A stretch of DNA of 42,775 bases, taken from an uncultured beta proteobacterium. Its GTDB lineage: Bacteria > Pseudomonadota > Gammaproteobacteria > Burkholderiales > Burkholderiaceae_C. The stretch is from contig CAIQYP010000336.1 in assembly GCA_903876045.1 (NCBI GenBank), forward strand, positions 1 through 42,775, read 5' to 3'. Both the position numbers and the translations under genes were made by a program. This document shows positions 16,592-35,531 of the stretch, one piece after another (the first letter of the stretch is position 1; the number at the start of each line of letters is the position of its first letter). Below the pieces are notes generated by a model. That model did no database searches. It was not told the DNA's origin and saw only the letters and a list, made by a program, of their open reading frames with translations.

Positions 16592-17066
16592 GTTCTTCCC
16601 ACTATTAATTTTCGATATTCCGCAGTGCGCAATGGTACGCGAATCAGACGACGACTCCATTCTCAACCCTCATAAAGCTCAAAAAACCGGCTAGTTAACG
16701 CTTCCACAATTCAAATGCAGCGCATTAGCTATTGCGCCTATTGCGTGCCCCGCAAATAGGCCAAATTCTGGAAATTGCCCACTTGTTTGAATGAGTGTTC
16801 GCAGCACCCCCGTCCGACACTGAAGCTTGCAACTAACTTACAACGCAGGGGTCAATAAAGTCCGAAAAAGCGTGAATAGTTGGCACTTTTACCGATTTAG
16901 TCACATTTGCACCCCTCCTCATATTTGTAATTATTTGCAAAATATGTGCGTTGATCGAATTTTCGGGAAGTCGATCAAGCCATCTCTGCTGAAGTGATGT
17001 CCAGATTGGCACAGATGCAAATTAGTCGCTATGCACACCTCAATTTTTGTTCGGGGAGTTATCAAT
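16592..17066. promoter_or_regulatory. Divergent regulatory region, copper chaperone-T2SS operon / mofA
   Basis: 475 bp, clearly more AT-rich than the flanking genes, with no convincing coding frame. It must hold the promoters of the minus-strand sco-gsp operon and of mofA. A candidate sigma70 promoter for mofA is TTGGCA at 17006-17011 and TATGCA at 17030-17035, 18 bp apart, giving a leader of about 25 nt. A perfect dyad (16951-16978) lies upstream of it. A GGGGAG ribosome-binding site is at 17053-17058. Confidence 0.6.
16951..16978. promoter_or_regulatory. Inverted repeat upstream of mofA (candidate operator)
   Basis: TTGATCGA at 16951-16958 and its exact complement TCGATCAA at 16971-16978 are separated by 12 bp, so dyad centres are about two helical turns apart. 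It lies 28-55 bp upstream of the candidate -35 of mofA, the place for an activator. The half-sites contain TTGAT/ATCAA, but the spacing is not that of a Crp/Fnr site (TTGAT-N4-ATCAA). Confidence 0.4.
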
Positions 17067-20000
17067 ATGAAGCTAAACACCATGAAAAAGACCCACCGCG
17101 GTTCATTTAAGCTCAGTCCGGTCACATCAGCTTTGCTGTTGGTGCTGGCTGCCCAGGTCCCTGCCAACCTGGCGTACGCCAACGCTGGCTTCGGTACCGT
17201 CACCGATCTAAACGGCGCAACGGTCAATGTGCCGACGTACTACGCGGCCAGCCCGCAAGGTATTCGTCCTGCCTTCGATCCGGTCACGCATGCCTTGAGC
17301 ACCACCGGCCTGACGGTCGATACCGGTACCCCGCTGCGCAAGTTCGTGGACAAACTCGGCGGCGTCTATAACGGGCTGGAAACCTACAACCCTCTGACAC
17401 CGACCGACCTGTCTGGCGGTATTCCTGTTGCATTGCCCGAAAAATGGGTGAATCTCGCCGGCGTGCAAACCACGGATGACTACTATGAAATCGCGGTCGT
17501 CGAATATACCCAACAACTGCATAGCGACTTGGCCAAGCCGACCCGCCTGCGCGGCTATGTGCAGATCGAAACTGCAAGTATGTATGCCGCCGCATTGGCT
17601 GGAAAACCTCTTTTTGACATTACCGGAGCTGTTCCCAGCGAGCACATTCCAGCGTTCTATCCTGACGGTACCCCCATCTACAAGATGGTGAAGAATGCAG
17701 CAGGCGATATGGTTCCCGATGTAACTCAGCAAGTATATTTTGTGCACAAGCCGCACTACCTTGGCCCGTCAATCGTCGCACAAAGTGGCACGCCGACGCG
17801 TATCAAGTTCACCAACTATCTGCCCTACACGGATAAGGCTGGCGTAACCCATGGCTCCCCAGCCGGTGGTGAGTATTACCTCCCGATTGATGAAACGATT
17901 GCTGGCGGCGGCCCGGTCACGATGCAATTGTTCAATCCGAACGGCACTCCTCAGCTTGATGCGGCAGGCAACCCAATTTCTGGTCCGGTGCTCAGTACGT
18001 CTGGCCCAAACAAAGGTAAGCCCGTCAAGTTCTCCCAGAACCGTGTGGCCATCCACTGGCACGGCGGTGATTCCCCTTGGACCAACGACGGTACACCTCA
18101 CGAATGGTTTACACCGGCTGGGGATGTCTCTTACTCCATGACGGATGCAGACCATCCTAATGGCATTGGCGTTGGCGATTCTTACCAGAACGTGCCCGAC
18201 ATGGCCGATCCGGGCCAGGGTTCGCAGACTCTGTATTACCCGATGAACCTGAGTGGTCGTCTGATGATGTACCACGACCACGTCTCCGGTCTGACCAAAA
18301 TCAACGCCTATGCTGGTGAAGCGTCGGGCCTGATCGTTTACGACATGACAGAGTTGGGCATGGTTGCCCAAGCTTTGAACACAGGTCTTGTCGGAGCCAA
18401 TGGACTCAATATGCCCACCGGCACGCTTCCGTCGGCCATCCCTCTCCTTGACACGGTCGGTATCCCCCTCGTCATCCAAGACAAGGTTTTCGTGCCCAAG
18501 AACATCGGCCCCAATGCAGTGGCCTCTGACGGCGTGACACCCGCATCCCAGGATGCCAAGTGGGACTTGACCCACTGGGGTCAACCGGGCGACTTCTATT
18601 TCCCTCACGTCTATGAAACCAACCAGGATCCAAACTCCATCGACGGTACCAATCCGGTGGGTCGCTGGGACTGGGGCCCCTGGTTCTGGCCAGTGTTCCC
18701 CGCGCAGTATTCGCTGCCAACAGGTAACTATGGTGATGTCACCGCTACACCAGAAGCCTTCCTCGACACCCCGACGGTCAATGGCCAGCCCTATCCGTTC
18801 ATGGAAGTGGAGCCCAAGACCTATCGCTTCCGTATTTTGAGCATCGGTAACGACCGCACGTTCAATCTCGGCTTCTACCAGGCGACGGACGTCAATGGCA
18901 AGATTTGCGACGCATCTAACCCCGCCGCAACTGCGCCTGCCGCGCCTATCACTGCGGGCGGTATTGGCGCACCAGTTTCTTGTACCGAAGTCCGCTTGGT
19001 TCCGGCACAACCTACCGCTGGTTTCCCCGCAACATGGCCTACCGATGGTCGCGCGGGTGGCGTGCCTGATCCCGCAACCGCTGGTCCGGATATCGTTCAG
19101 ATCGGTAACGAAGGTGGCTTGCTGCCTGCTCCAGCAATCTGGAAATCGCAACCGGTTAACTACGAACAAAACGTCCGCAGCATCACCGTCTTCAACGTGC
19201 TGGACCATGACCTGACACTGATGGGTGGTGAGCGCGCAGACATCTTGGTCGACTTCACCAAGTACGCCGGGCAAACACTGATTATGTATAACGACGCACC
19301 CGCGCCGTTCCCAGGTAACGACCCCCGTAGCGACTATTACACTGGCATGGGTGACAACACCGCCGCCGGTGGTGCCTACGATGTGATGCCTGGCTATGGT
19401 CCGAATACCCGTACCGTGATGCAGTTCAAAGTGGCTGCGACCAAGGGCGCTACTGGTGGACCATTGGATGTCGCTGCATTGAGCACTGCGCTGCCGGTCG
19501 CCTATGCCGCGACACAGCCCAAGAATCTGGTTCCGGAATCGGTCTACAACCAGGCCTTTGGAACTAACCAAACTGATACCTACGCACCTATCGGTACCGG
19601 TTCCGGCGCTGCACCTTATTGGGTGTTTGGCGGCGGCGCGTTTACGCTGACGGGTATCAACATGACCACGCCTGGTTCGTTGTATCCCGCCGGTACGACG
19701 GCTACCATCGACCCGCCGCTGTGCACTCCGCTTGGCACAGCAACCTGCGCCCAGGCCACCGTCACCCCGACGATCGGCGCTGGTGGTCGCCTCTCCTTTG
19801 CGGCCGGCGCATTCAATCCCGGTGCTGGTTACACCACGGTTCCGAACGTGACCTTCTCGGGTTTTGGCGCAGACGGTACGCGTGCTACCGCGATGATTTC
19901 GGCCAATGGCTCCAAGGTTATCAACAAGGCCATTCAGGAATTGTTTGATCCGGTCTTTGGCCGCATGAATGCGACCCTGGCCGCTGAACTGCCGTTCTCC

Positions 20001-22004
20001 ACCGCGACCATCGCCACCACGGTTCCATTGGCTTATATCGATACGCCGATCGAATACCTGGACGGTATCCATGACGACGAAACCCAGATCTGGAAGATCA
20101 CCCACAACGGTGTTGACTCGCACCCGGTGCACTTCCACCTGGTCAACGTACAGGTGATCAACCGCGTGGGCTGGGATGGCACCATCCGACCACCAGCAGC
20201 CAACGAAGTGGGCTGGAAAGAAACGCTGCGCATGAACCCGTTGGAAGACGTGTACGTCGCAGTCAAGGCCAACCGCCCCGTGTTGCCATTCGGTGTGCCC
20301 GCCAGCCACCGTCTGCTCGATCCTTCGCAAGCCGTCGGTTCGACCATGTACTTCACCAATATTGATCCGACGACGGGTAACGCACCGACTACACAGACTG
20401 TGCTGCAGAACGGTGTCAATACCGTGATCAATACAGGTCAGTATTCCAACCAGATGACGGACTTCGACAACGAATACGTCTGGCATTGCCACATCCTCGG
20501 TCACGAAGAGCAGGACTTCATGCGTCCGTTTATCTTCCACCCGAACGTGGTGGTACCTGATGCACCGGCTACTGTGACTGTTGCCGGCGGCAAGGTCACT
20601 TGGCTTGACACGACACCCGTCGGTGGTGTGGACGCTCAAGGCATCCCGACCGCAGGCGCCAATGCCGCTTACCCGGTGAAAACGAGCAGCCCGAAGAACG
20701 AAATCGGCTACAAGATTTACGTCAACGCGGTTCTCGATGCCAACGGATATGTATCAGCTGCAGCGGTTCCTGATGCGGTGACACGTGCCAACGAGACGAG
20801 CGTTGCTGCACCTGCTAATGCAACCACTGCCAACACGGTGGTCGTTGCCTACAACGCAGCGGGTAATTCGAAAGCGGGTACGAATGCCACCACCTTCACA
20901 CAAGGTGCAAACGTGGCAGTAACGCCACCGGCAAGCGCACCTGGCACACAGGCAGGCACGGCATCTATTAACGCACTGGGAACTGGGGTCACGTTTGCCG
21001 TGGCACCTGCCACTCCGTTCGTAGTGGGCGCCTCTGTTACCGGTGGCGGCTTCCCGCTTGGCACCGTTATCAGCGCGCTTGTAGGTACAACCGGGTTCAC
21101 TACCTCCGCGCCAGCAGTGGCCGTGGTGGGTGCTGTGGCTGGTACGACTGGCCCTGGTGCAACTGCCGCTAGCCTGACGATCAGCTTGGCCGCAGCGGCA
21201 GCATTGCCAACACCGACTGCATCTGCAGCGCCTGGAGGTCTGACGCAGACGATGACTTCGACTGGCACGGTGGTCCTGTCATGGACGGCTGTTCCTGGTG
21301 CGACGAGCTACTCGGTGAGCGTTACTGAGACTCCCAGTGGTGCAGCATCGTTAGCGCCGGTCGTTACTCCTGTCACTGCCGTGACGACAACCCCGCTGAC
21401 CGCAACGATCGATGCGACGGGCAAGACTGCGCTGGTGACCACCGGCTTGGTTACTGGTCTGTTCGTGGGTGAGACAGTATCGGGTGGCGGCTTCCCGGTC
21501 GGCACCACCATTGCCACGATCGACACCGTTGCCAACAGCTTCACGCTGAATGCGCAAAGCACAACGCCTGGTCTAGCTGCTCAAGCACTGACCGCTTCGG
21601 GCATAGCGCCGACCTTCACTACGGGTGTTTTGAATGCGAACTCGACCTACGCCTTTGCAGTCACGGCAACTACGTTGAGCGGCACCACGGTGGCGGCGAC
21701 ATCCGGTTTGACCAACTCGCAGACATTGCCACCGGTTGCATTTAGCGGTACTCCAGACGCAGCGGCAGGGTACATCACGATGAACTGGGCCAACAATGCT
21801 CTGAACAAGAACAATGTGGCCAGCTTGTTGTTGACATGGACGGGTGGAGCGGGTGGTACAGCGAAATTTGCGCCAACCACAACGGGTGCCACCATTATGG
21901 GACTGACCAGCGGAACTCCATACACCTTCACCTTGCAAGCGGTGAGCAATTTGGCTGCGTTCAACTCGACTACGGTTACTGCGGGCCCGATCGCCGCGCC
22001 GTAA
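17067..22004 (+). CDS. mofA: MofA-type giant multicopper oxidase (putative Mn(II)/metal oxidase)
   Basis: A 1645-residue exported multicopper oxidase. Signal peptide about 1-38, predicted cut AYA|NAGFG. All copper motifs are intact: HWHG (H330, H332), HDH (H403, H405), HPVHFH (H1019, H1022, H1024) and HCHILGH (H1140, C1141, H1142, H1146), i.e. ten His and the type 1 Cys. By comparison with CotA the axial type 1 position is Phe1151, with Met1152 next. The cupredoxin domains hold long insertions. After about residue 1165 come FN3-like modules and two copies of a GGGFPxGT turn repeat. Known: Leptothrix discophora MofA is a multicopper oxidase of about 1660 residues linked to Mn(II) oxidation and followed by mofB (FKBP) and mofC (heme protein), matching this locus. 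ATG 17067 is chosen because GGGGAG precedes it. The metal substrate is inferred. Confidence 0.9.
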   Translation: MKLNTMKKTHRGSFKLSPVTSALLLVLAAQVPANLAYANAGFGTVTDLNGATVNVPTYYAASPQGIRPAFDPVTHALSTTGLTVDTGTPLRKFVDKLGGVYNGLETYNPLTPTDLSGGIPVALPEKWVNLAGVQTTDDYYEIAVVEYTQQLHSDLAKPTRLRGYVQIETASMYAAALAGKPLFDITGAVPSEHIPAFYPDGTPIYKMVKNAAGDMVPDVTQQVYFVHKPHYLGPSIVAQSGTPTRIKFTNYLPYTDKAGVTHGSPAGGEYYLPIDETIAGGGPVTMQLFNPNGTPQLDAAGNPISGPVLSTSGPNKGKPVKFSQNRVAIHWHGGDSPWTNDGTPHEWFTPAGDVSYSMTDADHPNGIGVGDSYQNVPDMADPGQGSQTLYYPMNLSGRLMMYHDHVSGLTKINAYAGEASGLIVYDMTELGMVAQALNTGLVGANGLNMPTGTLPSAIPLLDTVGIPLVIQDKVFVPKNIGPNAVASDGVTPASQDAKWDLTHWGQPGDFYFPHVYETNQDPNSIDGTNPVGRWDWGPWFWPVFPAQYSLPTGNYGDVTATPEAFLDTPTVNGQPYPFMEVEPKTYRFRILSIGNDRTFNLGFYQATDVNGKICDASNPAATAPAAPITAGGIGAPVSCTEVRLVPAQPTAGFPATWPTDGRAGGVPDPATAGPDIVQIGNEGGLLPAPAIWKSQPVNYEQNVRSITVFNVLDHDLTLMGGERADILVDFTKYAGQTLIMYNDAPAPFPGNDPRSDYYTGMGDNTAAGGAYDVMPGYGPNTRTVMQFKVAATKGATGGPLDVAALSTALPVAYAATQPKNLVPESVYNQAFGTNQTDTYAPIGTGSGAAPYWVFGGGAFTLTGINMTTPGSLYPAGTTATIDPPLCTPLGTATCAQATVTPTIGAGGRLSFAAGAFNPGAGYTTVPNVTFSGFGADGTRATAMISANGSKVINKAIQELFDPVFGRMNATLAAELPFSTATIATTVPLAYIDTPIEYLDGIHDDETQIWKITHNGVDSHPVHFHLVNVQVINRVGWDGTIRPPAANEVGWKETLRMNPLEDVYVAVKANRPVLPFGVPASHRLLDPSQAVGSTMYFTNIDPTTGNAPTTQTVLQNGVNTVINTGQYSNQMTDFDNEYVWHCHILGHEEQDFMRPFIFHPNVVVPDAPATVTVAGGKVTWLDTTPVGGVDAQGIPTAGANAAYPVKTSSPKNEIGYKIYVNAVLDANGYVSAAAVPDAVTRANETSVAAPANATTANTVVVAYNAAGNSKAGTNATTFTQGANVAVTPPASAPGTQAGTASINALGTGVTFAVAPATPFVVGASVTGGGFPLGTVISALVGTTGFTTSAPAVAVVGAVAGTTGPGATAASLTISLAAAAALPTPTASAAPGGLTQTMTSTGTVVLSWTAVPGATSYSVSVTETPSGAASLAPVVTPVTAVTTTPLTATIDATGKTALVTTGLVTGLFVGETVSGGGFPVGTTIATIDTVANSFTLNAQSTTPGLAAQALTASGIAPTFTTGVLNANSTYAFAVTATTLSGTTVAATSGLTNSQTLPPVAFSGTPDAAAGYITMNWANNALNKNNVASLLLTWTGGAGGTAKFAPTTTGATIMGLTSGTPYTFTLQAVSNLAAFNSTTVTAGPIAAP

Positions 22005-22145: not shown

Positions 22146-25100
22146 GTGAAGAAACCCCAACACAATTCATTCAAGTTCAGCCCAGTTGCGATTGCTGTCG
22201 CAGTAGTGCTGACATCGCAGTTCGCTGCCAACGTCGCAGTTGCAGGAGCCGGTTTCGGCTCTGCGGCGACCCTTGGCGGTGTGGCTGCACAACCGCAAAC
22301 TTATTACGCGAATAGCCCATCGGGTCCTATTCCCGTGCTGACTACAGCAGCGCCTACGGGAACAGTTAGGGCGGACGGTAGCGGCCTGAAAAACGTTGCC
22401 ACCTCCGGCACATTGATGCGCAAGTTTGTTGATAAGTTGCCAGGCTTCGGTGCGGCAAATGCCAACCTTCTCGGTCAATACATACCACTCGCCGTTGCGG
22501 AGAAGTGGGTCAATCCGATGGGCGTTGCCACAACGGATGACTACTACGAAATCGCCGCTGTCGAGTTCAGTGAAAAAATGCACAGCGACCTGCCGAAGGC
22601 CACGAAATTGCGCGGTTATGTGCAGCTCGAAACTGCTGGCAACGCTGCGACCAGCAAGCACATTGCGTTGACTTATCCCAATGGCACTGCCATCACGGAT
22701 ACGGCTAGAGTTACGGCTGCCAATCCAACCGGCCAGGTTTACGCTTACGATAATCCGCACCACCTCGGCCCGGTTATCACCGCGTCCTCAGGCACGGCGG
22801 TACGGGTCAAATTCACCAACTATCTGCCAATCGGCGGCAAGTTATTTTTGCCAGTTGATCCCACCATTCCCGGCGCTGGTTTAGGCCCGGATAACACCAC
22901 TACTTATGGTGAGAACCGCGCCGGTATGCATCTGGTCGGTGGCCAGGCACCGTGGGTTAGCGCTGGTTCCCCGCATCAGTGGATAGCACCTGCAGGTGAT
23001 GCAGCCTATACCACGAGCGTGAATGCAAATGGTCTTGGCCAATACGGTATGGGCAAGGGTGCTAGCGCCCAGACCTTGCCTGACATGACCGATCCAGGTG
23101 CTGGTTCGACCTATCTGTATTTCCCGAACGACATGTCGGCGCGCTTCACATTTATTCAAGACCGCACCTCTGGCATGACGCGCCTGAACGCCTATGCCGG
23201 TCTGGAAGCCGGCTATGTTGTGACCGACCCAGTCGAGCTTGCCCTGATTAACGGTGGCACGTTGTCCGGTGGCGCACTGCCGGCAGCCGTGACGGTTGCT
23301 GCGGGAACAATCCCGAACTCCTTTGCCACTATCCCGCTGATCATTGAAGACAAGACCTTCGTGCCGGCCAACGTTGCGCAGCAAGATGCCAACTGGGATG
23401 CCGTCAAATGGGGCGCTCCTGGCGACCTGTGGTTCCCGCACGTGTACGAGACAAACCAGAGCCAGACTCTTCAAGGCGGCGTGAACACGGTGGGTCGTTG
23501 GGACTATGGCCCCTGGTTCTGGCCGATCTTCCCCGTTTCCTCCAGCAAGAACGCATTGCCCGCGTTGAGCTTCGTTCCTGAAGCCTACATGGACACGCCA
23601 GTTATCAATGGCACCGCCTACCCTACGGTTAACGTAGAAGCCAAGGCCTATCGTTTCCGCATTCTCAATGCCTCTAACGACCGCTACGTCAATCTGGGCT
23701 TGTACCTGGCTGACACGGCTAACAAGGCACCTCAGCTTGACCAGAATGGCAACCCGATCGTCAATGCTGCGGGCGTGCAACAGTTCTTCACCGATGCATT
23801 GGGACAGGGCAACACCGAAGTCAAGATGGTGCCTGCAGCGCCGATCAATGCTGCCGGCAACCCACCCGGATGGGATGTGGTCAACAACGTTCAGTTGCCG
23901 CTGCCACAATTTGGCACGACATTCCCCTGGAATATCAATGCCGAGCCCTCGGGCCCGACCCGCGCCTGGCCTGTTGATGGCCGTGCCGGTGGCTCGCCTG
24001 ACCCGACAATGTCCGGCCCCGACTTTGTGGTGATCGGTAATGACGGTGGTTTGCTGCCACAAGGCGTGGATATTCCTCCCCAGCCCGTCACCTATGAACA
24101 GAATCGTCGTTCCATTACGGTTACCAACATCTATGGCTACGGCCTGCTGCTTGGCCCATCAGAGCGTGCCGATACGATCGTCGACTTCACCAACTACGCT
24201 GACAAGACACTGATCTTGTACAACGACGCACCAGCGCCCACACCGTTCAACGATCCACGTAACGACTACTACACCGGCGATCCGGACCAGAGCGGCCAGG
24301 GTGGTGCTTACTCCACTTTGCCAGGCTATGGCCCGAACACCCGCACCATGATGCAGGTCGTGGTCGGCGCTAAGGGTGCTATCACCAACGGTGGCGGCCC
24401 GCTCAATGCCGCCGCACTGGCAGCGGCATTGCCCGCAGCCTACGGCGCGTCGCAACCCGCACCGCTGGTGCCAGAGGTGGCCTATAACGCCTCCTTCGGT
24501 ACTGCCGATGCAGATAACTATGGCCGTGTCGCTTCCGGTTCCGCAGCGCAACCAAACCTGACCTTTGCCAGAAGTTCAAATACGCTCGCATTGATTCCCG
24601 GACCGATGAACCTGGTCACTTCTGGCGGACCCAATACGGGTTCGGGCACGGGTTATTTCTCCGTACCCAATGTTGTCATCACCCCAACCAATGGTCTCGG
24701 TAGTGGCGCAGCGGCGACTGCAACGATCAATGCCACCACGGGTCAAGTAACCGGCGTCACACTCACCAGCGCAGGTACGGGCTACACGGCTCTGCCGAAC
24801 GTCACCTTCGTATCGACCGCTACTGTGGCAGGTGCCGTCGTGGCTGATGGCGGAACAGGTTACGTGACTGGCGACCAAGTGGTCTTTAGTGGTGGCGGTG
24901 GCACGGGTGCTGCTGCGACGGTGATCGCGTCCACTGGATCACCCATTTTGACAGCCCCGATTGTGAACAACATCGGTTCCGGCTACACCACAAACCCCAG
25001 TGTTTCCATCACGGGCGGTAGTGGCAGCGGCGCCACGGCTGTGGCGACGATCGTCACCTCCGGTATTTCCGCCACGGTGACCCCGTTGAGCGGCTCCGGC

Positions 25101-28100
25101 TATACCTCTGCTACGACCGCCATCGTGAGCCCGCCACAAACGGCTGGCACGCAAGCGGTTGTCACGCCAACGGTTGCCTTCCCCATATCCGGCGTGTTCA
25201 CCATCGCCGCAGGTGCGGGTGGCTCTGGCTATGACCTGATAAACAATACGACAGTCGTCAACTTCTCTGCGCCACAAATCCAGGGCGGTGTGCCGCCGAC
25301 TGCGACCGCGACCCTCAACCCGGCTGACGGGTCTATCTCGGGCATCACCATGCTGACGGCGGGTTCCGGCTATACGTCCGCGCCCACCATTACCGTCACT
25401 GACGCTGGTGCCAATCAGATTGATCCTGCAACCGGCCTGCCGGTTCAAGGCGCCAACTTGGCCACCGTAACAACGACGCTTGCAGCCACTGGCTCCATTG
25501 GCAGCATTGCCGTCACACCTGGCACAGGTTACACCCTGCCACCGACCATCACGTTTACCACCGGCACCGGTGCAGTCGTGAATCCTGGGCTGGTTAACCC
25601 GGTTGGTACATTGCCTGGCAATACCGGTACGCTGGCTACCCTGACTATGAGCAATGCCGGTACGGGCTACACCACGCCACCGACGATCACGATCACGGAT
25701 CCCGTGAACCTGGCCAATACCAGCGCCAAGGCAAGCTTCGGTCCGTTGGCTGTTTCTAGCGGCACAATCACCGGTGTAACCTTCACCAGCCATGGCTCGG
25801 GCTACACCTCGGCGCCGGCTCTTAGCATTGGCAATAACCTTGCTGGCCTACCAAGTGCCGGTACCGGCGCATTGTTGACGGCAAACATCCTCGCTTCTGG
25901 CACGGGTGCACAGGCTACCGTGGTAGCAAGTACGGCTGCCTCGATTCCTGTGGTGACCAAGGCCGAGCAGGAACTGTATGACGACTATGGTCGCTATAAC
26001 TCGACAGGTGGTGTTGAGCTGCCCTACACGCTGGTTGGTATTCAGACGACGATTCCTTTGAACTACATCGATGCACCGACCGAAGTCATCGGCGAAAACG
26101 AAGTGCAGATCTGGAAATTGGTGGACAACGGTTTCTGGTCCAATTCCATTCATTTCAGCATGGCCGATGTGCAGTTGGTCAACCGCGTGGGTTGGGATGG
26201 CACCGTCAAGCCACCAGCAAGCAACGAAGTGGGCTGGAAAGACACGGTTCGACTGAACCCGCTGGAAGACGCCATCGTTGCAATCAAGGCCAAGACGCCC
26301 AAAGTTCCGTTTGGTCAGCCCAGAAGCACGCGTCTGCAGGATCCGACCTCGATAGTTGGAACCATCAGCCCACCGGCCGCGCCGGCAGCGCTCACGCCTG
26401 GCGTGCGCTACGCTTCCGGCCTAGGCTTCACCGCCGATCCGAACGTGGTCACACAAGCGGGTCTGAATGCTCAAGTGCCAGTGGGACCGATTGCTGTGGG
26501 TACGCAGTTCCTTACAGCGACAGCCAATACGGCAGTCCTGCCAGGCAGCCCGACAGGCAACTTCGACAACGAATTCACCTGGGGTTCAGCGATCCTCGGC
26601 CATGCTGAGAACGACTTCACCCGCCCGATGGTGTTCAACCCGAATGTTGTCACACCGGCACCCAGCACACTGTCCGATCCGCTTGGAACCGGCACTTTGA
26701 ACTGGACCGATCCGACACCGGCATCGACCCCGCTGACAACGCTGGCCAACCCGCAAAATGAAATCGGCTTCAACCTGCTGCAAGCGCCGACGGCCTATAT
26801 CGCCGGAGTGAATGGGGCTGGCGGCTACCGCGTGAATGGCGCATTTGCGCCATACCTCGCCAAGCCTGCCAACGTGACGCAATACATTGAGCCCGCAGCC
26901 AATGTGAAGCCAAACGCTGCCGCCTACTTCGCATACGAGGTGTCAGGATGGAACGCCGCTGGTTCTTCGATCTCCAATATTGCGATCGAAGCACCGCCGG
27001 ATAATCCGACCGCTCTGGTGTTGACGCCTGTATGGGCACCACAAGTTACGCCCACCGCAACGGACGTTCAGCTCACAGCGACTTGGCAAGACAACGCAGT
27101 CAACGAGACCAACTACATCGTGACCCGAACCGGCCCGAGCATCGCAGCGCCCGTCGCTGGCAAGGTGACCGGAGCTGTGGTGACCACTACGCTGCCAGCT
27201 AACCTTGCTGCGGGATCGACCACGACAACTTTTGTTGACCCAAGTCTCCTGGTTGAAGGCAGCTATTACGAATACGATGTGGTAGCCCGCAACGCGTTCG
27301 GTGATTCGAAGGTGTTGTCCGGCACGGTGCAAGCGCCAAACTACATGCCGCTGGCTCCGACCAACCTCGCTGCTGGATTTACCATCGTCAGTCCTTGCCC
27401 GGTTGACGCCGTGACCAAGGTGGCAGTGCCATCGCAATGCCGGCCAGATTTTGTCAATCTGACCTGGACAGACAACGCCATCAACGAAGCCAACTACATC
27501 GTGACCCGTACGGGCGGCAATGTAGCCTTCCCGCAGGTGACTTTGCCCGCCAACAGCGTGTCCTATCAGGATACGACGGCTGCTGAAGGTGTCGCTTACA
27601 CGTATACCGTGGCGGCAGTCAATGCTTCTGGCTCCGCCACTGCCTCGTTGGCTGTGACCGAGCCGGTCGTAGAACCGACGATCCCGAGCAACGTTGTCAT
27701 TACGCCCTCGACGGCGCTGGATGCCAACGGCACGTTCGTGGATACGGCAACGCTGACCTGGAGCGACAACGCCTACACCGAAACCGGTTACCAGGTCTAT
27801 CGTGATGGTGTCGCAATTGGAGCCGTGCAAGCCGGTAGCGCCCTCAACAATCCGATGGGCACGGGAACCGCTGGCTGGAAGTCCAGCCCGGTGCTGAGCT
27901 ACGTGGATACGGGCCTGGTCGATGGCACATCGCACACTTGGTCGGTTCAGGCGATCGGCGTGACGGGCCTGACGAAGATGTCGGCATCCACTGCGCTGAC
28001 CAAGTTGCCTGGTGTTGTTGTCAACCCACCAACAGGTCTGGTGATCACGCCTAACCGCGCTGGTTCCTCGATTGGCCTGCAATGGACCGATATGTCGAAC

Positions 28101-29339
28101 AACGAGACCGACTTCCTGGTTGAAGAACAAGTCTCGACGGACGGTGGTTTGACGTTCCGCAGCGTTGCAAACACGGGTACGCTCAATGGCTGGACGGCAT
28201 TGCCGCGGATCGGTCGTAGCGCGGCGCAGACCGCAGCGTTCGGTCCTGGTAACCTGGTGAACTACAACCGAGGCAACGTGCCGACGACGGCTGGTTACGT
28301 GTACAACTTCCGGATTAGTGCGCGGGATATGCTCCCCGGTATCACCAGCGATTCGCATCCGTACCTGACAGGTCAGGCTAGTCTGAATCTGCCACCGGTA
28401 CCTGTGGCACCGGTTCTGGTCTCGCCTCCTGTGGTGACCTTCAACACTGCCACGCTGACTGACCGTGTGCGTCTGACCTGGAACAAGATCACTCCGGTGG
28501 CTGGCACGACGATGAGCTATCTGGTGTTTGCCGGTGGTGTGCAAATTGGGGTAGTTGCGCAACCATTCAACGCCGCAGCAACCACCGTTACCTTCAACTA
28601 CAACCTGACGGCGGCGCAGATTGCTGCTGGCGTTAGCTTCACGGTTGAGTCAAGGCAGACGGCGATCCGCGTAGCCGGTCAAACGCTCTTTGGTACAAGC
28701 GTGAGCGTGCCGTCCAATACGGTGACGCTAGGGGCTGCTCCGGCTGCTCCAGCAGCACCAGCGACATTCGCTGCGGTTACCAACGCAACGACAGGCGCAG
28801 TGACTGCTACCTGGGCTGCGGTAACGCCGCCAGCAGGCAGCACGGTCTCTTACGTGGTGCAGAGCGTATTGGTAGGCGGTGCTGGTACAACCCGTCGTCA
28901 AACCCCGGCAACGTCCGGTGGTGCGCTGACGATTGTTCCCGCCGGTAACAGCTACACCGTCTCGGTTGCAGCGATATTCACCAATGCACAGGGTGTGGCA
29001 GTCGAGGGTCCGATGTCAGCTGCGGTCACGGTTAACACCTGGCCTGCTCAGTCAACGGCTCTGACCAATGTGCTCTCCGCAACGGCACGGACCTTTAACG
29101 TGGGCTTCAACAATACGTCGACCAACATCACCGGCTTCACTATCCAACGTGGCGTCTCTGCTACGGCGGGTGGAGCGGTGACCTGGACGACTATTGCGGT
29201 GACTCCGACGAAGGTGGGTAACGTCTACTCGTTCAGCAACCTGGCTCCGGCTGCTGGCTTCTACCGCTTCCGTATCCAAGCCACGAGCGTGGCCGGTACA
29301 ACGGCGGTGGCGACTACGCCGACAGTGAATACGCCTTAA
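22146..29339 (+). CDS. Giant MofA paralogue with degenerate copper sites, GxGY repeats and FN3 array
   Basis: A 2397-residue exported protein homologous to the upstream MofA over its whole oxidase region (for example KWVNPMGVATTDDYYEIAAV and WFPHVYETNQ blocks) but with copper sites dismantled. HWHG is HLVG (H262 kept), HDH is QDR (338-340), HxxHxH is NSIHFS (only H1336 kept), HCHILGH is GSAILGH (1480-1486; Cys lost, H1486 kept). Three of eleven core ligands remain. Where MofA has one GxGY repeat, this protein has about ten (residues about 829-1262). The C-terminal 900 residues form about seven FN3-like domains (repeated LTWTDNAxNExxYxVxR pattern). Signal peptide cut AVA|GAGFG. GTG start at 22146 with AGGGAG upstream, matching the mofA N-terminus. 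No stop or frameshift over 7.2 kb, so it is probably a functional non-enzyme. Confidence 0.9.
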   Translation: MKKPQHNSFKFSPVAIAVAVVLTSQFAANVAVAGAGFGSAATLGGVAAQPQTYYANSPSGPIPVLTTAAPTGTVRADGSGLKNVATSGTLMRKFVDKLPGFGAANANLLGQYIPLAVAEKWVNPMGVATTDDYYEIAAVEFSEKMHSDLPKATKLRGYVQLETAGNAATSKHIALTYPNGTAITDTARVTAANPTGQVYAYDNPHHLGPVITASSGTAVRVKFTNYLPIGGKLFLPVDPTIPGAGLGPDNTTTYGENRAGMHLVGGQAPWVSAGSPHQWIAPAGDAAYTTSVNANGLGQYGMGKGASAQTLPDMTDPGAGSTYLYFPNDMSARFTFIQDRTSGMTRLNAYAGLEAGYVVTDPVELALINGGTLSGGALPAAVTVAAGTIPNSFATIPLIIEDKTFVPANVAQQDANWDAVKWGAPGDLWFPHVYETNQSQTLQGGVNTVGRWDYGPWFWPIFPVSSSKNALPALSFVPEAYMDTPVINGTAYPTVNVEAKAYRFRILNASNDRYVNLGLYLADTANKAPQLDQNGNPIVNAAGVQQFFTDALGQGNTEVKMVPAAPINAAGNPPGWDVVNNVQLPLPQFGTTFPWNINAEPSGPTRAWPVDGRAGGSPDPTMSGPDFVVIGNDGGLLPQGVDIPPQPVTYEQNRRSITVTNIYGYGLLLGPSERADTIVDFTNYADKTLILYNDAPAPTPFNDPRNDYYTGDPDQSGQGGAYSTLPGYGPNTRTMMQVVVGAKGAITNGGGPLNAAALAAALPAAYGASQPAPLVPEVAYNASFGTADADNYGRVASGSAAQPNLTFARSSNTLALIPGPMNLVTSGGPNTGSGTGYFSVPNVVITPTNGLGSGAAATATINATTGQVTGVTLTSAGTGYTALPNVTFVSTATVAGAVVADGGTGYVTGDQVVFSGGGGTGAAATVIASTGSPILTAPIVNNIGSGYTTNPSVSITGGSGSGATAVATIVTSGISATVTPLSGSGYTSATTAIVSPPQTAGTQAVVTPTVAFPISGVFTIAAGAGGSGYDLINNTTVVNFSAPQIQGGVPPTATATLNPADGSISGITMLTAGSGYTSAPTITVTDAGANQIDPATGLPVQGANLATVTTTLAATGSIGSIAVTPGTGYTLPPTITFTTGTGAVVNPGLVNPVGTLPGNTGTLATLTMSNAGTGYTTPPTITITDPVNLANTSAKASFGPLAVSSGTITGVTFTSHGSGYTSAPALSIGNNLAGLPSAGTGALLTANILASGTGAQATVVASTAASIPVVTKAEQELYDDYGRYNSTGGVELPYTLVGIQTTIPLNYIDAPTEVIGENEVQIWKLVDNGFWSNSIHFSMADVQLVNRVGWDGTVKPPASNEVGWKDTVRLNPLEDAIVAIKAKTPKVPFGQPRSTRLQDPTSIVGTISPPAAPAALTPGVRYASGLGFTADPNVVTQAGLNAQVPVGPIAVGTQFLTATANTAVLPGSPTGNFDNEFTWGSAILGHAENDFTRPMVFNPNVVTPAPSTLSDPLGTGTLNWTDPTPASTPLTTLANPQNEIGFNLLQAPTAYIAGVNGAGGYRVNGAFAPYLAKPANVTQYIEPAANVKPNAAAYFAYEVSGWNAAGSSISNIAIEAPPDNPTALVLTPVWAPQVTPTATDVQLTATWQDNAVNETNYIVTRTGPSIAAPVAGKVTGAVVTTTLPANLAAGSTTTTFVDPSLLVEGSYYEYDVVARNAFGDSKVLSGTVQAPNYMPLAPTNLAAGFTIVSPCPVDAVTKVAVPSQCRPDFVNLTWTDNAINEANYIVTRTGGNVAFPQVTLPANSVSYQDTTAAEGVAYTYTVAAVNASGSATASLAVTEPVVEPTIPSNVVITPSTALDANGTFVDTATLTWSDNAYTETGYQVYRDGVAIGAVQAGSALNNPMGTGTAGWKSSPVLSYVDTGLVDGTSHTWSVQAIGVTGLTKMSASTALTKLPGVVVNPPTGLVITPNRAGSSIGLQWTDMSNNETDFLVEEQVSTDGGLTFRSVANTGTLNGWTALPRIGRSAAQTAAFGPGNLVNYNRGNVPTTAGYVYNFRISARDMLPGITSDSHPYLTGQASLNLPPVPVAPVLVSPPVVTFNTATLTDRVRLTWNKITPVAGTTMSYLVFAGGVQIGVVAQPFNAAATTVTFNYNLTAAQIAAGVSFTVESRQTAIRVAGQTLFGTSVSVPSNTVTLGAAPAAPAAPATFAAVTNATTGAVTATWAAVTPPAGSTVSYVVQSVLVGGAGTTRRQTPATSGGALTIVPAGNSYTVSVAAIFTNAQGVAVEGPMSAAVTVNTWPAQSTALTNVLSATARTFNVGFNNTSTNITGFTIQRGVSATAGGAVTWTTIAVTPTKVGNVYSFSNLAPAAGFYRFRIQATSVAGTTAVATTPTVNTP
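24630..25930 (+). repeat. Array of about ten GxGY beta repeats inside the MofA paralogue
   Basis: Coding repeats with the core G(S/T)GYTxxPxVxF/I appear about ten times (first GTGYFSVPNVVI near 24645, then GTGYTALPNVTF, GTGYVTGDQVVF, GSGYTTNPSVSI, GSGYTSATTAIV, GSGYDLINNTTV, GSGYTSAPTITV, GTGYTLPPTITF, GTGYTTPPTITI, and last GSGYTSAPALSI near 25797). Spacing is 26-55 residues. Most are followed by a small-residue-rich ATATI-type strand. The MofA counterpart has one clear copy (GAGYTTVPNVTF near 19821), so the array looks like an in-frame expansion. A beta-solenoid-like or adhesive fold is inferred. Confidence 0.75.
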
Positions 29340-29355
29340 ACGAAGTAGCGTAATA

Positions 29356-29396
29356 ATCGCCGGTGTCAGCCAACGCTGGCACCGGCGATTTTTTTT
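29356..29396 (+). terminator. Strong intrinsic terminator after the MofA paralogue
   Basis: A 15-bp stem (29356-29370 with 29375-29389, one G-T pair), a 4-nt CAAC loop and an immediate run of eight T (29389-29396). This is the most convincing intrinsic terminator in the window. It lies 17 bp after the stop codon and separates the two oxidase-like genes from mofB, which therefore probably has its own promoter or depends on read-through. Confidence 0.9.
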
Positions 29397-29441: not shown

Positions 29442-30131
29442 ATGTTGAAAAAGAGTTTTATTTCTGCTTGCGGCGTGGCACTAGTTACGGTGTCGGCCTT
29501 TGCGGCAGACAGCGTTGCGATCAAGTCAGATAAAGACAAACTGAGCTATAGCATCGGTGCCTCCATAGGCAAGAATTTTAAAAATGAAGGCACTGAAGTC
29601 GATGTGAATGTGCTGATGGAAGGTCTAAAGAATTCCCTGACCGGTGACAAATTGCTGGTGCCGGAAAAAGACATGCATCAGATCATGAACGACTACCAGA
29701 CGCAGTTGCGCCAGAAGATGGCAGCGAAACGGCAGCAAGCGGTTCAGGACAACAAAAAACTAGGCGATGCGTTTGTAGCTGACTTCAAAAAGCAGCCCGG
29801 TGTGGTTAGCGCACCCAGCGGCATCCTCTACCAGGTTATCAAAGCTGGTACGGGCAGAATACCGGCCGAGTCAGACATTGTTGAAGTCAACTACCGTGGC
29901 ACGTTGATCAACGGCACCGAGTTTGATGCCACCGAGCCCGGCCACCCCGCTGGCCTTAAAGTGGCCGCACTTATTCCCGGTTGGAAACAGGCGTTAACCA
30001 CGATGCCCATTGGCTCCAAGTGGCACCTTGTCATTCCGGCGGTGCTGGCTTACGGTGAACGCGGCGTTGGCACTGACATTGGCCCCAATGAAACCCTGGT
30101 ATTTGACTTGGAGTTGTTGGGGATCAAGTAA
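29442..30131 (+). CDS. mofB: Periplasmic FKBP-type peptidyl-prolyl isomerase (MofB)
   Basis: A 229-residue FkpA/Mip-type foldase. Signal peptide residues 1-21 (ending AFA before ADS). The N-terminal helical dimerisation domain (about 25-110) contains LSYSIGASIGKNFKNEG and a long Gln/Lys-rich helix. The C-terminal FKBP domain (about 125-229) shows VEVNYRGTLINGTEFDAT, a central Trp (IPGWKQAL) and AYGERGVGTDIGPNETLVFDLELL. It should help fold prolyl-rich exported proteins. The two giant beta-rich proteins upstream are obvious clients, and an FKBP gene occupies the same place (mofB) in Leptothrix. AGGGAA lies upstream of the start. Confidence 0.9.
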   Translation: MLKKSFISACGVALVTVSAFAADSVAIKSDKDKLSYSIGASIGKNFKNEGTEVDVNVLMEGLKNSLTGDKLLVPEKDMHQIMNDYQTQLRQKMAAKRQQAVQDNKKLGDAFVADFKKQPGVVSAPSGILYQVIKAGTGRIPAESDIVEVNYRGTLINGTEFDATEPGHPAGLKVAALIPGWKQALTTMPIGSKWHLVIPAVLAYGERGVGTDIGPNETLVFDLELLGIK

Positions 30132-30187: not shown

Positions 30188-30239
30188 AAAATATCTAGCG
30201 CTAGATTGCTTTAATACATTTCCAGGGATGAATCAAAAA

Positions 30240-32084
30240 ATGGCGGATCTCACGGACCACCGCAAAACCCAATGGCTATTTTCGGGTTTATGCATGAGGT
30301 GCTTCTTTGGTTTGGCGCTCGGTTTTTTGTTGTCCGCACAGGCGGCTGCTCAAAGCCTATCGCCAGCGAGTCCGGCTGCATTGGAGATGGGGCGGCTAAT
30401 CTACACGGAGGGAATGATTTCGCCGGGTGTTGCCTTAACGGGCACCCGTTTTGGCAACTCCACCACCTCGGGTGCGGAGGCTGCCTGTATCAATTGCCAT
30501 CGCCGCAGTGGCATGGGCCAGGTTGAGGGTAACGCTCAAATACCGCCAATCAACGGCACCTATTTGTTTGCGGAGCAAAACGAAAAGCGCATTGCGACTA
30601 TGGATCCGCATGTCAGCAAGCAATTTAACCAGGCGCATGCCCCCTATACCGACACGACCCTCTCCGCCGCAATCCGTGGGGGAATGAATAACCGCGGTCA
30701 AGTGATGAGTTTGGCCATGCCACGGTACAACCTGGATGACTCGCAGGTCAAGGCGGTCACGGCGTATTTGAAACAAATATCAGCGCAGTGGTCACCGGGT
30801 GTTACATCAAACACTATTCGCTTTGCAACAGTCATCACGCCTGATGTGGAGCCCGAGCGTCGCAAGGTGTTTATGCAAATGATGCAGACTATTTTTCGGC
30901 AGAAAAATGGCAGCACCAAGATTTCCAAGTTTAATCAGACGCGCCATCACATGATCTCCGCGGCAGAGCTGATTTTGGGTACTGAACGCAATTGGGGTCT
31001 CGATGTTTGGGAATTGACGGGCCCTTCGGAAACGTGGGCCGCGCAGCTGGAGGAAAAATACAAGGCTCAGCCGGTATTTGCATTGGTGTCAGGGTTGGGG
31101 ACCTCCACCTGGAAGCCGGTTCATGATTTCTGTGACCACAACGGTGTGCCATGCTGGTTTCCCAGCATTGAATCGCCAGAAAAGAACCGGTCGTTCTATT
31201 CGCTCTATTTTTCTGGTGGTGTGAAGCTTGAGGCCGATGTGCTTGCGCAACATTTGCGCCGTGCCGAGACTTTGCCGAAGCGTGTGGTTCAGGTTTATAG
31301 GGATGGCTTTGTTACCGATGCTGCTGTAAAGGGACTTGGTCAGGCATTAGCCGGTAGTCCTATCCAATTGGAGGCCCGCATTCTGGATGCTGGCCTGCCA
31401 CCTGAAGAGGCGTTGCGCAAAGCAATTGCAGGTATTGGCCCTGCAGATGTGGCCGTGTTCTGGTTGCGCCAAGATGACATTGTTGCCCTCGAAAAACTAA
31501 AGCCTGTGCCGGGCAAAGCCTATTTTTCGTCGGTGTTGGGCAAGTCCGAGCAGATGCCGCTGCCTGCGGCGTGGAGGGTAAATTCGTCCCTGATATATCT
31601 CCATGAATTGCCAGAAAAACGTGTTAGAAATATCGAATATTTCGATATTTGGCTTAGCATAAACAAGATTGCTTTGGTCGATCAAACGATGCAGACAGAA
31701 GTGTTCTTTGCCATGAATTTCCTTACAGACACGTTGGCTGAGATGCTAGACAATATGTACCGCGATTATCTGGTTGAGAGAGCGGAAAACATGTTGAGTA
31801 TTCGTGAAGGCATCAAGACCGAGCAAGAAGCGCGGGACCGCGTGATGCTGGGTCGCCCGGAGGACATCATGATGAAACATGGTCATCCCAATGTGGATGA
31901 GTCGATGCGAATATCCCCGGTTACTGGACATGACAGCCTGGTCAAGAGCAGTGGTACAACGCTTTACCCCAGGCTTAGCTTGGGGTCAGACCAACGGTTT
32001 GCATCAAAAGGTGGTTACATAGTCCGCTTTGCTGGATCAGGTGGTGTTCAAATAGTTGCGCAGTCTGACTTTATTGTTCCTTAG
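30240..32084 (+). CDS. mofC: MofC-like cytochrome c fused to a periplasmic-binding-protein-like domain
   Basis: About 614 residues, exported (hydrophobic segment FFGLALGFLLSAQAAAQ within the first 40). One c-type heme site, CINCHRRSGMG (CxxCH near residues 83-87), with a plausible distal Met in MSLAMPRYNLDDSQVKAVTAYL closing a class I cytochrome domain at about 165. The remaining 440 residues alternate alpha/beta (FALVSGLGTSTWKPVHDFC, RVVQVYRDGFVTDAAVKGLGQAL) like ABC-type ligand-binding proteins. Known: Leptothrix mofC encodes a heme-binding-motif protein. It may take electrons from the oxidase or sense a ligand. ATG 30240 has AGGGA at good distance; an ATG at 30228 lies directly on that site. 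Confidence 0.83.
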   Translation: MADLTDHRKTQWLFSGLCMRCFFGLALGFLLSAQAAAQSLSPASPAALEMGRLIYTEGMISPGVALTGTRFGNSTTSGAEAACINCHRRSGMGQVEGNAQIPPINGTYLFAEQNEKRIATMDPHVSKQFNQAHAPYTDTTLSAAIRGGMNNRGQVMSLAMPRYNLDDSQVKAVTAYLKQISAQWSPGVTSNTIRFATVITPDVEPERRKVFMQMMQTIFRQKNGSTKISKFNQTRHHMISAAELILGTERNWGLDVWELTGPSETWAAQLEEKYKAQPVFALVSGLGTSTWKPVHDFCDHNGVPCWFPSIESPEKNRSFYSLYFSGGVKLEADVLAQHLRRAETLPKRVVQVYRDGFVTDAAVKGLGQALAGSPIQLEARILDAGLPPEEALRKAIAGIGPADVAVFWLRQDDIVALEKLKPVPGKAYFSSVLGKSEQMPLPAAWRVNSSLIYLHELPEKRVRNIEYFDIWLSINKIALVDQTMQTEVFFAMNFLTDTLAEMLDNMYRDYLVERAENMLSIREGIKTEQEARDRVMLGRPEDIMMKHGHPNVDESMRISPVTGHDSLVKSSGTTLYPRLSLGSDQRFASKGGYIVRFAGSGGVQIVAQSDFIVP

Positions 32085-33612: not shown

Positions 33613-34740
33613 CTAGTCAATTTTAGCTTTGCGCGGAAAGTCCCACCAGGGGAGCACCCGGCGCAAGGATTGCACCACGCCGCTTTGCCACGGTGTGTAG
33701 CCGGGTAAGGCGGACAACCGGGCTTGCCAGGCCGGGCTTTTCAGCAGGAGCATCAGGGCCACGATGGCCGGGTCGTCAAGGGCCGACTTCAGGCAAACCA
33801 GGTGGTAGCTCTCTTGCAGCAGGGGCACAAAATCCAACCCATGCGCGCGCGCCGCCACCTCAATGCCCAGACCCACGTCGGCACTGCCTGATGCAATCGC
33901 GTGGGCCACGGCGGTGTGCGATGGCTCGGTGTGCTCGTAGCCCGGAAACTGCTCGGGCAGCAGCCCGTTTTGCCCGAGCAACTCGTCCAGTACCACGCGC
34001 GTGCCGGTGCCCAGTGGGCGGTTGATGAAGCGAGCCGACTGGCTCTGCACGTCCTGCAACGTGCGCAAATCCAGCGGGTTGCCAGCGGCCACCATCAAGC
34101 CCTGCGTGCGCGTGGCAAAGCCGATGATTTTGTGCAGGCCGGGCTTGAGCAGGGGTTTGTAGATTTTCTCAGCCACCGAGCCTTGCACCGGGTTTTGCAA
34201 AGTGTGAAAGCCGGCCATGACGCAGCGGCCTTCGTTGAGTGCGCGAATCGCATCCACGCTGCCGCTAAAGCGTATGTCCAGATGCAGGCGCGCGTGGCTG
34301 TGCGCTGCCAACCAATCGTCATTTGCCAAAGCAAACTCGCGCAGCGCGCCCAGTGCATGGTCATGGCTGGCGTAGAGCATCACCACGTGGGCCAATGGGT
34401 CAAAGGCCACTGCAAAGGCGCGCTCCAACTCGCTGCGCAGCGCCTCGATCTGCGGGGCCAGGCGCGCTTGTGCCTGCCCTTCGGCCCACATGAGTTTGGA
34501 GCCGAACTCGGTGAGGCGGGCCGCCTGGCCTTTTTCCCAGATCAGTAATTCGTTGCCCAACTCTTGCTCCCAGCGCTTGAGTTCGCCCCAGACGTGGCGG
34601 TAGCTCAGACCCAGCGCCCGCGCGGCAGCCGATATGGAGCCGTGGGTCGATACGGCTTGCAGTAAATCGATCAGCGGGTTACGAACCAGTGCCGGGCTGC
34701 TTTGACGCGAAAGGGTGTAGTGGAACTGGAGCCTATGCAC
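33613..34740 (-). CDS. ModE-type HTH regulator with substrate-binding domain, divergent from tupBCA
   Basis: A 375-residue regulator. N-terminal ModE/LysR-like winged helix: LLQAVSTHGSISAAARALGLSYRHVWGELKRW (about 26-57, HTH). The C-terminal two-thirds is a PBP-like domain of the type found in molybdate-responsive regulators (RFINRPLGTGTRVVLDELL and SGSADVGLGIEVAA are characteristic). It probably senses tungstate or molybdate directly and controls the tungstate transporter genes, which start 50 bp away on the other strand. Confidence 0.87.
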   Translation of the reverse strand: MHRLQFHYTLSRQSSPALVRNPLIDLLQAVSTHGSISAAARALGLSYRHVWGELKRWEQELGNELLIWEKGQAARLTEFGSKLMWAEGQAQARLAPQIEALRSELERAFAVAFDPLAHVVMLYASHDHALGALREFALANDDWLAAHSHARLHLDIRFSGSVDAIRALNEGRCVMAGFHTLQNPVQGSVAEKIYKPLLKPGLHKIIGFATRTQGLMVAAGNPLDLRTLQDVQSQSARFINRPLGTGTRVVLDELLGQNGLLPEQFPGYEHTEPSHTAVAHAIASGSADVGLGIEVAARAHGLDFVPLLQESYHLVCLKSALDDPAIVALMLLLKSPAWQARLSALPGYTPWQSGVVQSLRRVLPWWDFPRKAKID

Positions 34741-34790
34741 GGGATTTCATATGGTTGGTTATTGGAGCTGCGACTACGATACCTGAAGTT
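34741..34790. promoter_or_regulatory. Short divergent promoter region, regulator / tupB
   Basis: Only 50 bp separate the start of the ModE-like regulator from the tupB start, so both promoters must overlap each other or the coding ends. I found no clear inverted repeat or strong Shine-Dalgarno (only TGAAG before the tupB ATG). Confidence 0.4.
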
Positions 34791-35531
34791 ATGACGAGTT
34801 TTACCGATAGCGCCGCAACGGCGCTGAACCTTATTCTTTCCCTGGACTCCAACCTGATGGCGATCGTGGCCCGCTCGCTGTGGGTGAGCGCCTGGGCCAC
34901 GATGTTTGCCTGTGTGCTGGGCCTGCTGTTGGGTGCCGTGCTGGGTGTTGCCCGCTTTGCCGGGCGCAATGCCGTGCTGGCCGTGCTGAACACATTTTTG
35001 GCCGTGCCTTCGGTGGTGGTGGGGCTGGTGGTTTACCTGCTGCTGTCGCGCACCGGGCCGCTGGGCTTTTTGGGCTGGCTGTTTTCCTTCAAGGCCATGG
35101 TGCTGGCGCAGACCTTTTTGGTGTTGCCGGTGGTGACCGCGTTGACCCGGCAGGTGGTGGAAGATGCGGAAGGCCAGCATGGCGAACAACTGCAGTCGCT
35201 GGGCGCGCGCGCACTGCTGCGTAGCGTGCTGCTGGCATGGGATGAGCGTTATGCGCTGCTGACGGTGGTGTTGGCTGCATTTGGGCGTGCCGTTTCAGAA
35301 GTGGGTGCGGTGATGATTGTGGGTGGCAACATCGACGGCTTTACCCGCGTGATGACCACGGCGATTGCACTGGAAACCAGCAAGGGCGATTTGCCACTGG
35401 CGCTGGGTCTGGGCCTGGTATTGCTGCTGGTGGTGCTGCTGCTCAACGTGTTGGTTGCGGCTTTGCGCTACTGGCGCGAGCATGAAGAGGGCGCCTCCAG
35501 CGCCATGCCTCAGCTTGGGGTAAGCGTATGA
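34791..35531 (+). CDS. tupB: Tungstate ABC transporter permease TupB
   Basis: A 246-residue inner-membrane permease with about five hydrophobic segments (first near residues 28-50, FACVLGLLLGAVLGVARF) and the ABC permease EAA-type loop that contacts the ATPase (EQLQSLGARALLRSVLLAW). The AFGRAVSEVGAVMIVGGNIDGFTRVMTTAI segment is typical of TupB/WtpB. The ATG at 34791 is chosen over an in-frame ATG at 34689, which would reach into the divergent regulator gene. Its stop overlaps the tupC ATG by 4 bp. Confidence 0.9.
   Translation: MTSFTDSAATALNLILSLDSNLMAIVARSLWVSAWATMFACVLGLLLGAVLGVARFAGRNAVLAVLNTFLAVPSVVVGLVVYLLLSRTGPLGFLGWLFSFKAMVLAQTFLVLPVVTALTRQVVEDAEGQHGEQLQSLGARALLRSVLLAWDERYALLTVVLAAFGRAVSEVGAVMIVGGNIDGFTRVMTTAIALETSKGDLPLALGLGLVLLLVVLLLNVLVAALRYWREHEEGASSAMPQLGVSV

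Follow-up and report, generated by a model that had tools for sequence, protein, structure and literature searches.

A copper-less MofA paralogue conserved beside mofA: a candidate non-catalytic partner of the multicopper oxidase

The copper enzyme MofA is believed to carry out extracellular oxidation of manganese or iron. In a 42,775-nucleotide stretch of DNA from an uncultured beta proteobacterium (hereafter the window), mofA (17031–22004, + strand) encodes an intact multicopper oxidase with all 11 copper ligands, and directly downstream lies a second MofA-like gene (22146–29339, + strand) that has lost most of them. What does such a gene do beside an active relative? We addressed this question by reading-frame translation, BLASTP, Pfam, alignment, dN/dS and tree analyses of the paralogue and its relatives.

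The GTG at 22146 opens a single frame of 2,397 amino acids plus stop, unbroken over 7.2 kb as the first-pass annotation had reported, and GGGAG, a ribosome-binding-like sequence, lies 9 bases 5′ of it. The encoded protein consists of an N terminus that is signal-peptide-like by eye, a multicopper-oxidase core, a long insert and a fibronectin III-type C-terminal part. A fibronectin type III domain (PF00041; residues 1755–1837; 27408–27656, + strand; 25.6 bits, cut-off 25) is the only Pfam domain above cut-off. Cu-oxidase_2 scores 15.4 bits in the window paralogue, under its gathering cut-off of 20.4, and three of five copper-less members match it at E up to 0.1. The core insert (24573–25895, + strand, bounds approximate) carries seven GxGYxxxP-type repeats; counts range from 1 to 7 in nine copper-less frames, compared with 0 or 1 in the six MofA partners counted, and the repeats enlarge the core insert of some copper-less copies and scarcely that of MofA partners. 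BLASTP aligns the paralogue to MofA (1,657 aa) with 42% identity over 991 columns and 37% over 432 columns, and identity over 884 core columns is 52%. Near-identity therefore holds for short stretches, and the earlier description of long near-identical blocks otherwise overstates the likeness.

The surrounding genes place the pair in a mof-type cluster. With mofA adjacent, and a mofB-like FKBP-type prolyl isomerase gene (29442–30131, + strand) and a mofC-like gene (30228–32084, + strand; cytochrome c domain, with a periplasmic-binding match below threshold) near, the paralogue sits where a component of the mof operon would. Upstream in the window, on the other strand, are a SCO1/SenC-type copper chaperone gene divergent from mofA (15917–16666, − strand) and a type II secretion-like cluster (7248–15453, − strand; T2SSF, T2SSE, secretin, pseudopilin-like). 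Its PilO match, which is sub-threshold, and its MshEN domain make a related type IV-pilus-like machine possible. Directly after the paralogue stop lies a terminator-like hairpin (29355–29390, + strand; 16 pairs then T), a pattern match only, which could separate mofA and the paralogue from mofB and mofC; it has the longest stem listed among the hairpin-type sites, of which 16 were found versus 17.0 expected in shuffles. A promoter scan returned nothing useful (one weak opposite-strand site versus 8.2 expected). In the excerpted text of two reports, published mof clusters have the order mofA–mofB–mofC, with SCO1 in several genomes, and OmpB carries a fibronectin III domain (PMC5566968, PMC8218464). 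The mof operon of Rubrivivax sp. A210 includes an unidentified exported protein (PMC8218464). The window pair thus lies in the same kind of cluster as MofA of Leptothrix discophora and OmpB of Geobacter sulfurreducens, which are outer-surface multicopper oxidases, and operon and motif likeness suggest that the window MofA belongs to the MofA/OmpB family. The paralogue, by contrast, is without most copper ligands and two second-shell acids, forms its own clade and often has a larger insert. Elsewhere in the window are an aldehyde:ferredoxin oxidoreductase gene (526–2373), a LysR/PBP-type regulator with an ABC transporter and solute-binding protein (33613–37083), which looks like a molybdate or tungstate uptake system, its substrate being a guess, and a group II intron reverse transcriptase/maturase with an HNH domain between radC and lytB (38572–40476).

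The four copper motifs of MofA are altered in the paralogue: HWHGG to HLVGG at motif 1 (22929–22943, + strand), HDH to QDR at motif 2 (23157–23165, + strand), SHPVHFH to SNSIHFS at motif 3 (26139–26159, + strand) and HCHILGH to GSAILGH at motif 4 (26583–26603, + strand). All four changes had been read exactly in the first-pass annotation (HWHG to HLVG at motif 1), and our alignment bears out its count of seven of ten ligand histidines and the type 1 Cys lost.

Orthologues with the same loss, each beside mofA, were recovered when MofA homologues without copper motifs were sought, as had been proposed. A scan of genome contigs, covering the best 80 of 179 relatives taken as 79 loci, yielded four further copper-less proteins (L039, L040, L041 (= L026) and L042), and whole-genome searches added another four (L186, L187, L188 and L189), all belonging to a second genus in the same family. 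A tenth, L193, comprises the first 101 residues only, a contig end cutting the rest. The nine complete cores come from seven genomes. Five belong to two genera in one family: the genome of the window (a 4.9-Mb draft in 578 contigs, 94% complete), G012 of the same genus (L041), and G1225, G1168 and G924 of the second genus, which hold two copper-less copies each, L039 (= L190) being one of those in G1225. The others are a Nitrosomonadales groundwater genome (L042) and an uncultured, unplaced proteobacterium (L040). Every complete core is contained within a single open frame; from stop to stop, the nine frames span 1,658 to 2,514 residues. The whole-genome searches, at E up to 1e-60 and with the window genome counted in each, gave matches in 2 of 399 genomes for the order, 4 of 369 for the class, 5 of 399 for the family, 10 of 103 for the genus and 3 of 5 for the genus of G1225; copper-less copies were present in G000, G012, G1225, G1168 and G924, and in the other matched genomes all visible copper motifs were intact, several loci being partly visible (G040 by motif 1 alone). 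At 75 of the 79 MofA-like loci (from the best 80 of 179 relatives), the DNA stretch covered had no copper-less signature, which indicates that the pair is rare and that a MofA-like protein in general needs no such neighbour.

Besides copper-less and complete intact proteins, the 104 aligned rows comprised partial rows, L063 (C-terminal half unaligned), L100:3054-7034 (motif 1 missing), L105 and L111. The proteins used for the tree and ligand counts (35: nine copper-less with a complete core and 26 intact) and for dN/dS (18) were drawn from these rows and the whole-genome finds, and three partial MofA rows were excluded from the tree. The window genome holds two more MofA-like genes, on contigs C504 and C250, both intact; in the tree, the C504 gene clusters with the MofA-like gene of Comamonadaceae record L050, from which the host is guessed to belong to Burkholderiales. 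The MofA-like proteins of Plantactinospora (L105:9731-13417 and L111:9653-13438) have His to Gln changes at three ligand positions (HDQ, TQ..HFH, HCQ), a partial loss that differs from the copper-less clade pattern.

Relative to the 26 intact proteins, eight of the 11 ligand columns have lost their ligand throughout the nine copper-less copies, none of which has the complete set of ten His and one Cys that a functional multicopper oxidase requires for its four coppers. At five columns the change is always to the same residue (Q338, R340, N1333, S1481 and A1482). In what follows, alignment to CotA was computed, and the type 1, 2 and 3 copper labels are those that we take to apply to these positions. 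In motif 1, Val or Ile replaces the type 3 His; motif 2 reads QDR in all nine; in motif 3 the type 1 His is always Asn, with Asp, Ser or Asn in place of the final His; and motif 4 begins with Gly or Asn, followed in every copy by Ser for Cys and Ala for His. The final His of motif 4 is the sole ligand present throughout. The first type 2 His is present in eight copies (Arg in one) and the second in seven (Arg in two), and the pair is broken in three of the nine. The earlier view that the retained histidines are the two type 2 ligands plus one type 1 His is therefore correct for the window protein but does not describe a fixed feature, and the same broken pairs weaken the proposal that the retained type 2 His bind a mineral or metal. 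From these alignments it is almost certain that the oxidase centre has been lost.

This loss is concentrated on the ligands. In the 26 intact proteins, 141 columns are invariant, 11 of them ligand and 130 other; loss in all nine copper-less proteins affects 8 of the 11 versus 6 of the 130 (Fisher p = 1.4e-7, which expresses concentration of loss on ligands, the nine proteins being related and not nine independent losses). All nine retain 117 of the 130 non-ligand columns. The claim that loss is confined to ligands nevertheless fails at the six other columns, two of which, MofA D353 and E1159, align with CotA D116 and E498, a CotA D116E mutant chain confirming the D116 position. These equivalents are acids beside the trinuclear site, and both are lost in the copper-less proteins. 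According to the available portion of a CotA study, E498 mutants are severely impaired, equivalents of D116 matter in CueO and Fet3p, and the authors doubt proton transfer by D116 and propose a structural role for it (PMC2944330). With both acids gone, parts of the catalytic machinery beyond the ligands have thus been given up and the scaffold kept.

At 26 columns in all, the nine copper-less proteins are fixed for a residue that all 26 intact relatives lack; those outside the ligands include W1331, D1327, E354, H206, Y663 and Y665. Together with Q338, R340, N1333, S1481 and A1482, these are candidate residues of an interface or a new site. Such fixation would be expected had Gln, Arg, Asn, Ser and other residues remodelled the emptied pockets to bind another ligand or metal, giving the protein a different activity. 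We consider this quite unlikely, since the fixed residues could equally fill a pocket or form an interface and the type 2 His pair is not conserved. Copper ligands supplied elsewhere in the fold would have spoken for an enzyme, but the window protein has no obvious substitute for the type 1 copper site: its core contains no Cys and 10 His, compared with 5 Cys and 25 His in MofA. In the eight remaining copper-less cores, there are 0 to 4 Cys each. Among columns with His in at least six of the nine copies, only 206 and 794 have none in all 26 intact relatives.

The oxidase fold is retained. An AlphaFold2 model of the L042 orthologue core (1,057 aa, 35 sequences; mean pLDDT 72.1, pTM 0.78) has the three-domain cupredoxin fold, and its best Foldseek match is CotA laccase (E 1.4e-33; TM 0.81 by target length, 0.40 by query length). 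By homology to this core, the fold of the window protein is predicted to be CotA-like; the model of window residues 781–1546 (third domain plus insert) has a mean pLDDT of 34.8 and is uninformative. A profile of copper-less proteins and intact relatives matches CotA at 1e-63 versus 2e-11 for SufI (2uxt), placing the family nearer CotA.

All ten copper-less loci adjoin mofA, six being whole and four cut by contig ends. The copper motifs are visible in the adjoining mofA at eight loci; at L041 and L040, these are motifs 3 and 4 only. L187 has an apparent C-terminal part of mofA at its contig start, L193 has mofA followed by the cut copper-less gene, the contig of L039 ends within the copper-less gene, and L042 has the reversed order, with the copper-less gene first. 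Among the nine loci with complete cores, window included, mofC is a neighbour at seven and mofB, SCO1 and GspF at six each, absences of mofC or mofB reflecting either contig-end cuts or a gene missing from the stretch covered. G1225, G1168 and G924 apparently hold two mofA/copper-less pairs each, of differing sequence and some cut (L189, L190 = L039, L188, L187, L186, L193). The two pairs seem to lie in one region, a guess from contig ends, with mofB apparently between them in G1225 and G924. At L042 a second FKBP-type isomerase gene (20554–21183) lies between mofB and mofC, and L040 has a similar-looking ORF (10951–11517). A HisKA_3-type histidine kinase gene lies between the SCO1 and pseudopilin/GspF genes at L189 (2114–3016), with a similar-looking ORF in L186.

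The sources being metagenome-assembled or many-contig drafts, the copper-less gene might be a decaying duplicate or an assembly artefact. However, the loss and the adjacency are common to seven genomes, the frames remain open over 1,658 to 2,514 residues, and the copper-less proteins are under purifying selection: pairwise NG86 dN/dS over 885 core columns of 18 proteins is 0.10–0.22 for 36 pairs of copper-less proteins and 0.06–0.26 for 36 pairs of MofA partners (two of the nine proteins partial), values that are rough, dS being near saturation in many pairs, yet far below 1. Neither a broken frame nor a dN/dS near 1, the marks of a pseudogene, was found in the copper-less proteins. We regard this explanation as highly improbable, and the same evidence rules out decay or a chimaera. 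It also supports, with the loss common to orthologues and the mofA adjacency, the earlier proposal of a retained non-enzymatic role, perhaps beside MofA as its partner.

In the tree (LG+G4+F, 35 proteins), the nine copper-less proteins form a clade with support of 100, as do the seven complete MofA partners (100), and the two clades group together with support of 99 against the 19 other MofA-like proteins chosen. The copper-less clade is sister to the MofA partners, so that the paralogue falls outside the MofA-partner clade, and L042 is the first branch in both. L189 is placed with the window and L039 among the MofAs (97) and with L187, L186, L188 and L041 among the copper-less proteins (98), and the two histories are thus not wholly parallel. 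For the six whole pairs, mean core distances are 0.265 versus 0.262 and the distances correlate with r of 0.81, a value equalled or exceeded in 4 of the 720 orderings, counting the true one. These data fit a single duplication after which the two genes travelled together, by inheritance or by transfer. They do not prove contact between MofA and the paralogue, and adjacency and matching distances would also be expected if the two genes had separate functions and were passed on in one module.

One such separate function would be that of a surface matrix or adhesin: without forming a complex with MofA, the protein would build a structural layer or a mineral-binding wall, and the two genes would share an operon since each product is needed at an oxide-coated surface. 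The fibronectin-type C-terminal part, the repeat-rich insert of variable length and the signal-peptide-like N terminus are in keeping with such a role, but MofA has a C-terminal part of the same kind, nearly all invariant columns lie in the cupredoxin core and not in the tail, and all ten loci adjoin a mofA of one clade; on balance we find it unlikely. Removal of the catalytic residues and co-location with mofA would also suit a regulator or decoy, whether dominant-negative or copper-sensing, by which MofA activity is limited. In our judgement, the lasting pairing, the size and the MofA-like evolutionary rate are a better fit to a structural subunit, and we hold regulation or a decoy function to be very unlikely.

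The explanation that we favour, with slightly better than even confidence, is that an old mofA duplication gave rise to a dedicated, copper-free subunit of oxidase fold that serves the MofA system as a non-catalytic scaffold. On this proposal, mofA would have been duplicated long ago inside the mof operon, and the duplicate would have become unable to hold four coppers or reduce oxygen. MofA and the paralogue would be made from one transcript and both exported, probably via the neighbouring type II secretion-like system. At the cell surface, their homologous cupredoxin and fibronectin-type domains would bring the two together. There MofA would oxidise Mn(II) or Fe(II), and the copper-less subunit may hold MofA in place, stabilise it or carry the growing oxide. 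More tentatively, the extracellular metal oxidase of these bacteria could be an obligate heteromer of active MofA and copper-free paralogue, in which the rebuilt pockets would act as an interface or a ligand site and so determine the place and manner of oxide formation.

Copper-free proteins with an oxidase fold are already known. SufI/FtsP of Escherichia coli has the multicopper-oxidase fold, binds no copper and retains 2 of 12 canonical copper residues, and in the excerpted report its authors favour a scaffold function (PMC2661564). The paralogue family, copper-free as predicted from its residues, is similar in this respect and may by analogy have a scaffold role, although SufI/FtsP is a cell-division protein. 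The insect protein MCORP is related to multicopper oxidases, lacks many copper-coordinating residues and is essential according to the title of the paper (PMC4203857), but it has no paired bacterial metal oxidase. The copper-less family differs from both in being encoded beside its active relative. The Bacillus Mnx complex, to which the pair had been likened, is comparable in principle as a manganese-oxidising multicopper oxidase with other subunits but not in kind: as described in the available part of the report, MnxE and MnxF are non-multicopper-oxidase subunits of about 12 kDa that bind copper and have no similarity to characterised proteins (PMC5622069), whereas the candidate subunit here is a paralogue of the enzyme itself. 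Within the partial texts of the open-licence PMC literature, we found no description of a copper-less MofA paralogue or of a copper-free oxidase-fold protein paired with a metal-oxidising multicopper oxidase.

These findings bear on the MofA system more widely. In the portion available of a 2024 genome study, mofA is among the top expressed genes of Leptothrix ochracea and its role is called unclear; multicopper oxidases were found there by copper-binding motifs, an approach that would pass over the copper-less paralogue (PMC11412304). Annotation by copper motif or Pfam overlooks this protein; if the oxidase were a heteromer, the overlooked partner could be part of why the function of MofA has proved elusive. 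The paralogue also provides a bacterial example of a pseudo-enzyme maintained next to its active counterpart across separate lineages, namely two genera in a single family and one Nitrosomonadales genome, a spread that reflects either common descent or transfer of the pair. As a conserved copper-free sister encoded beside mofA, it represents a concrete candidate for a missing component of the MofA system.
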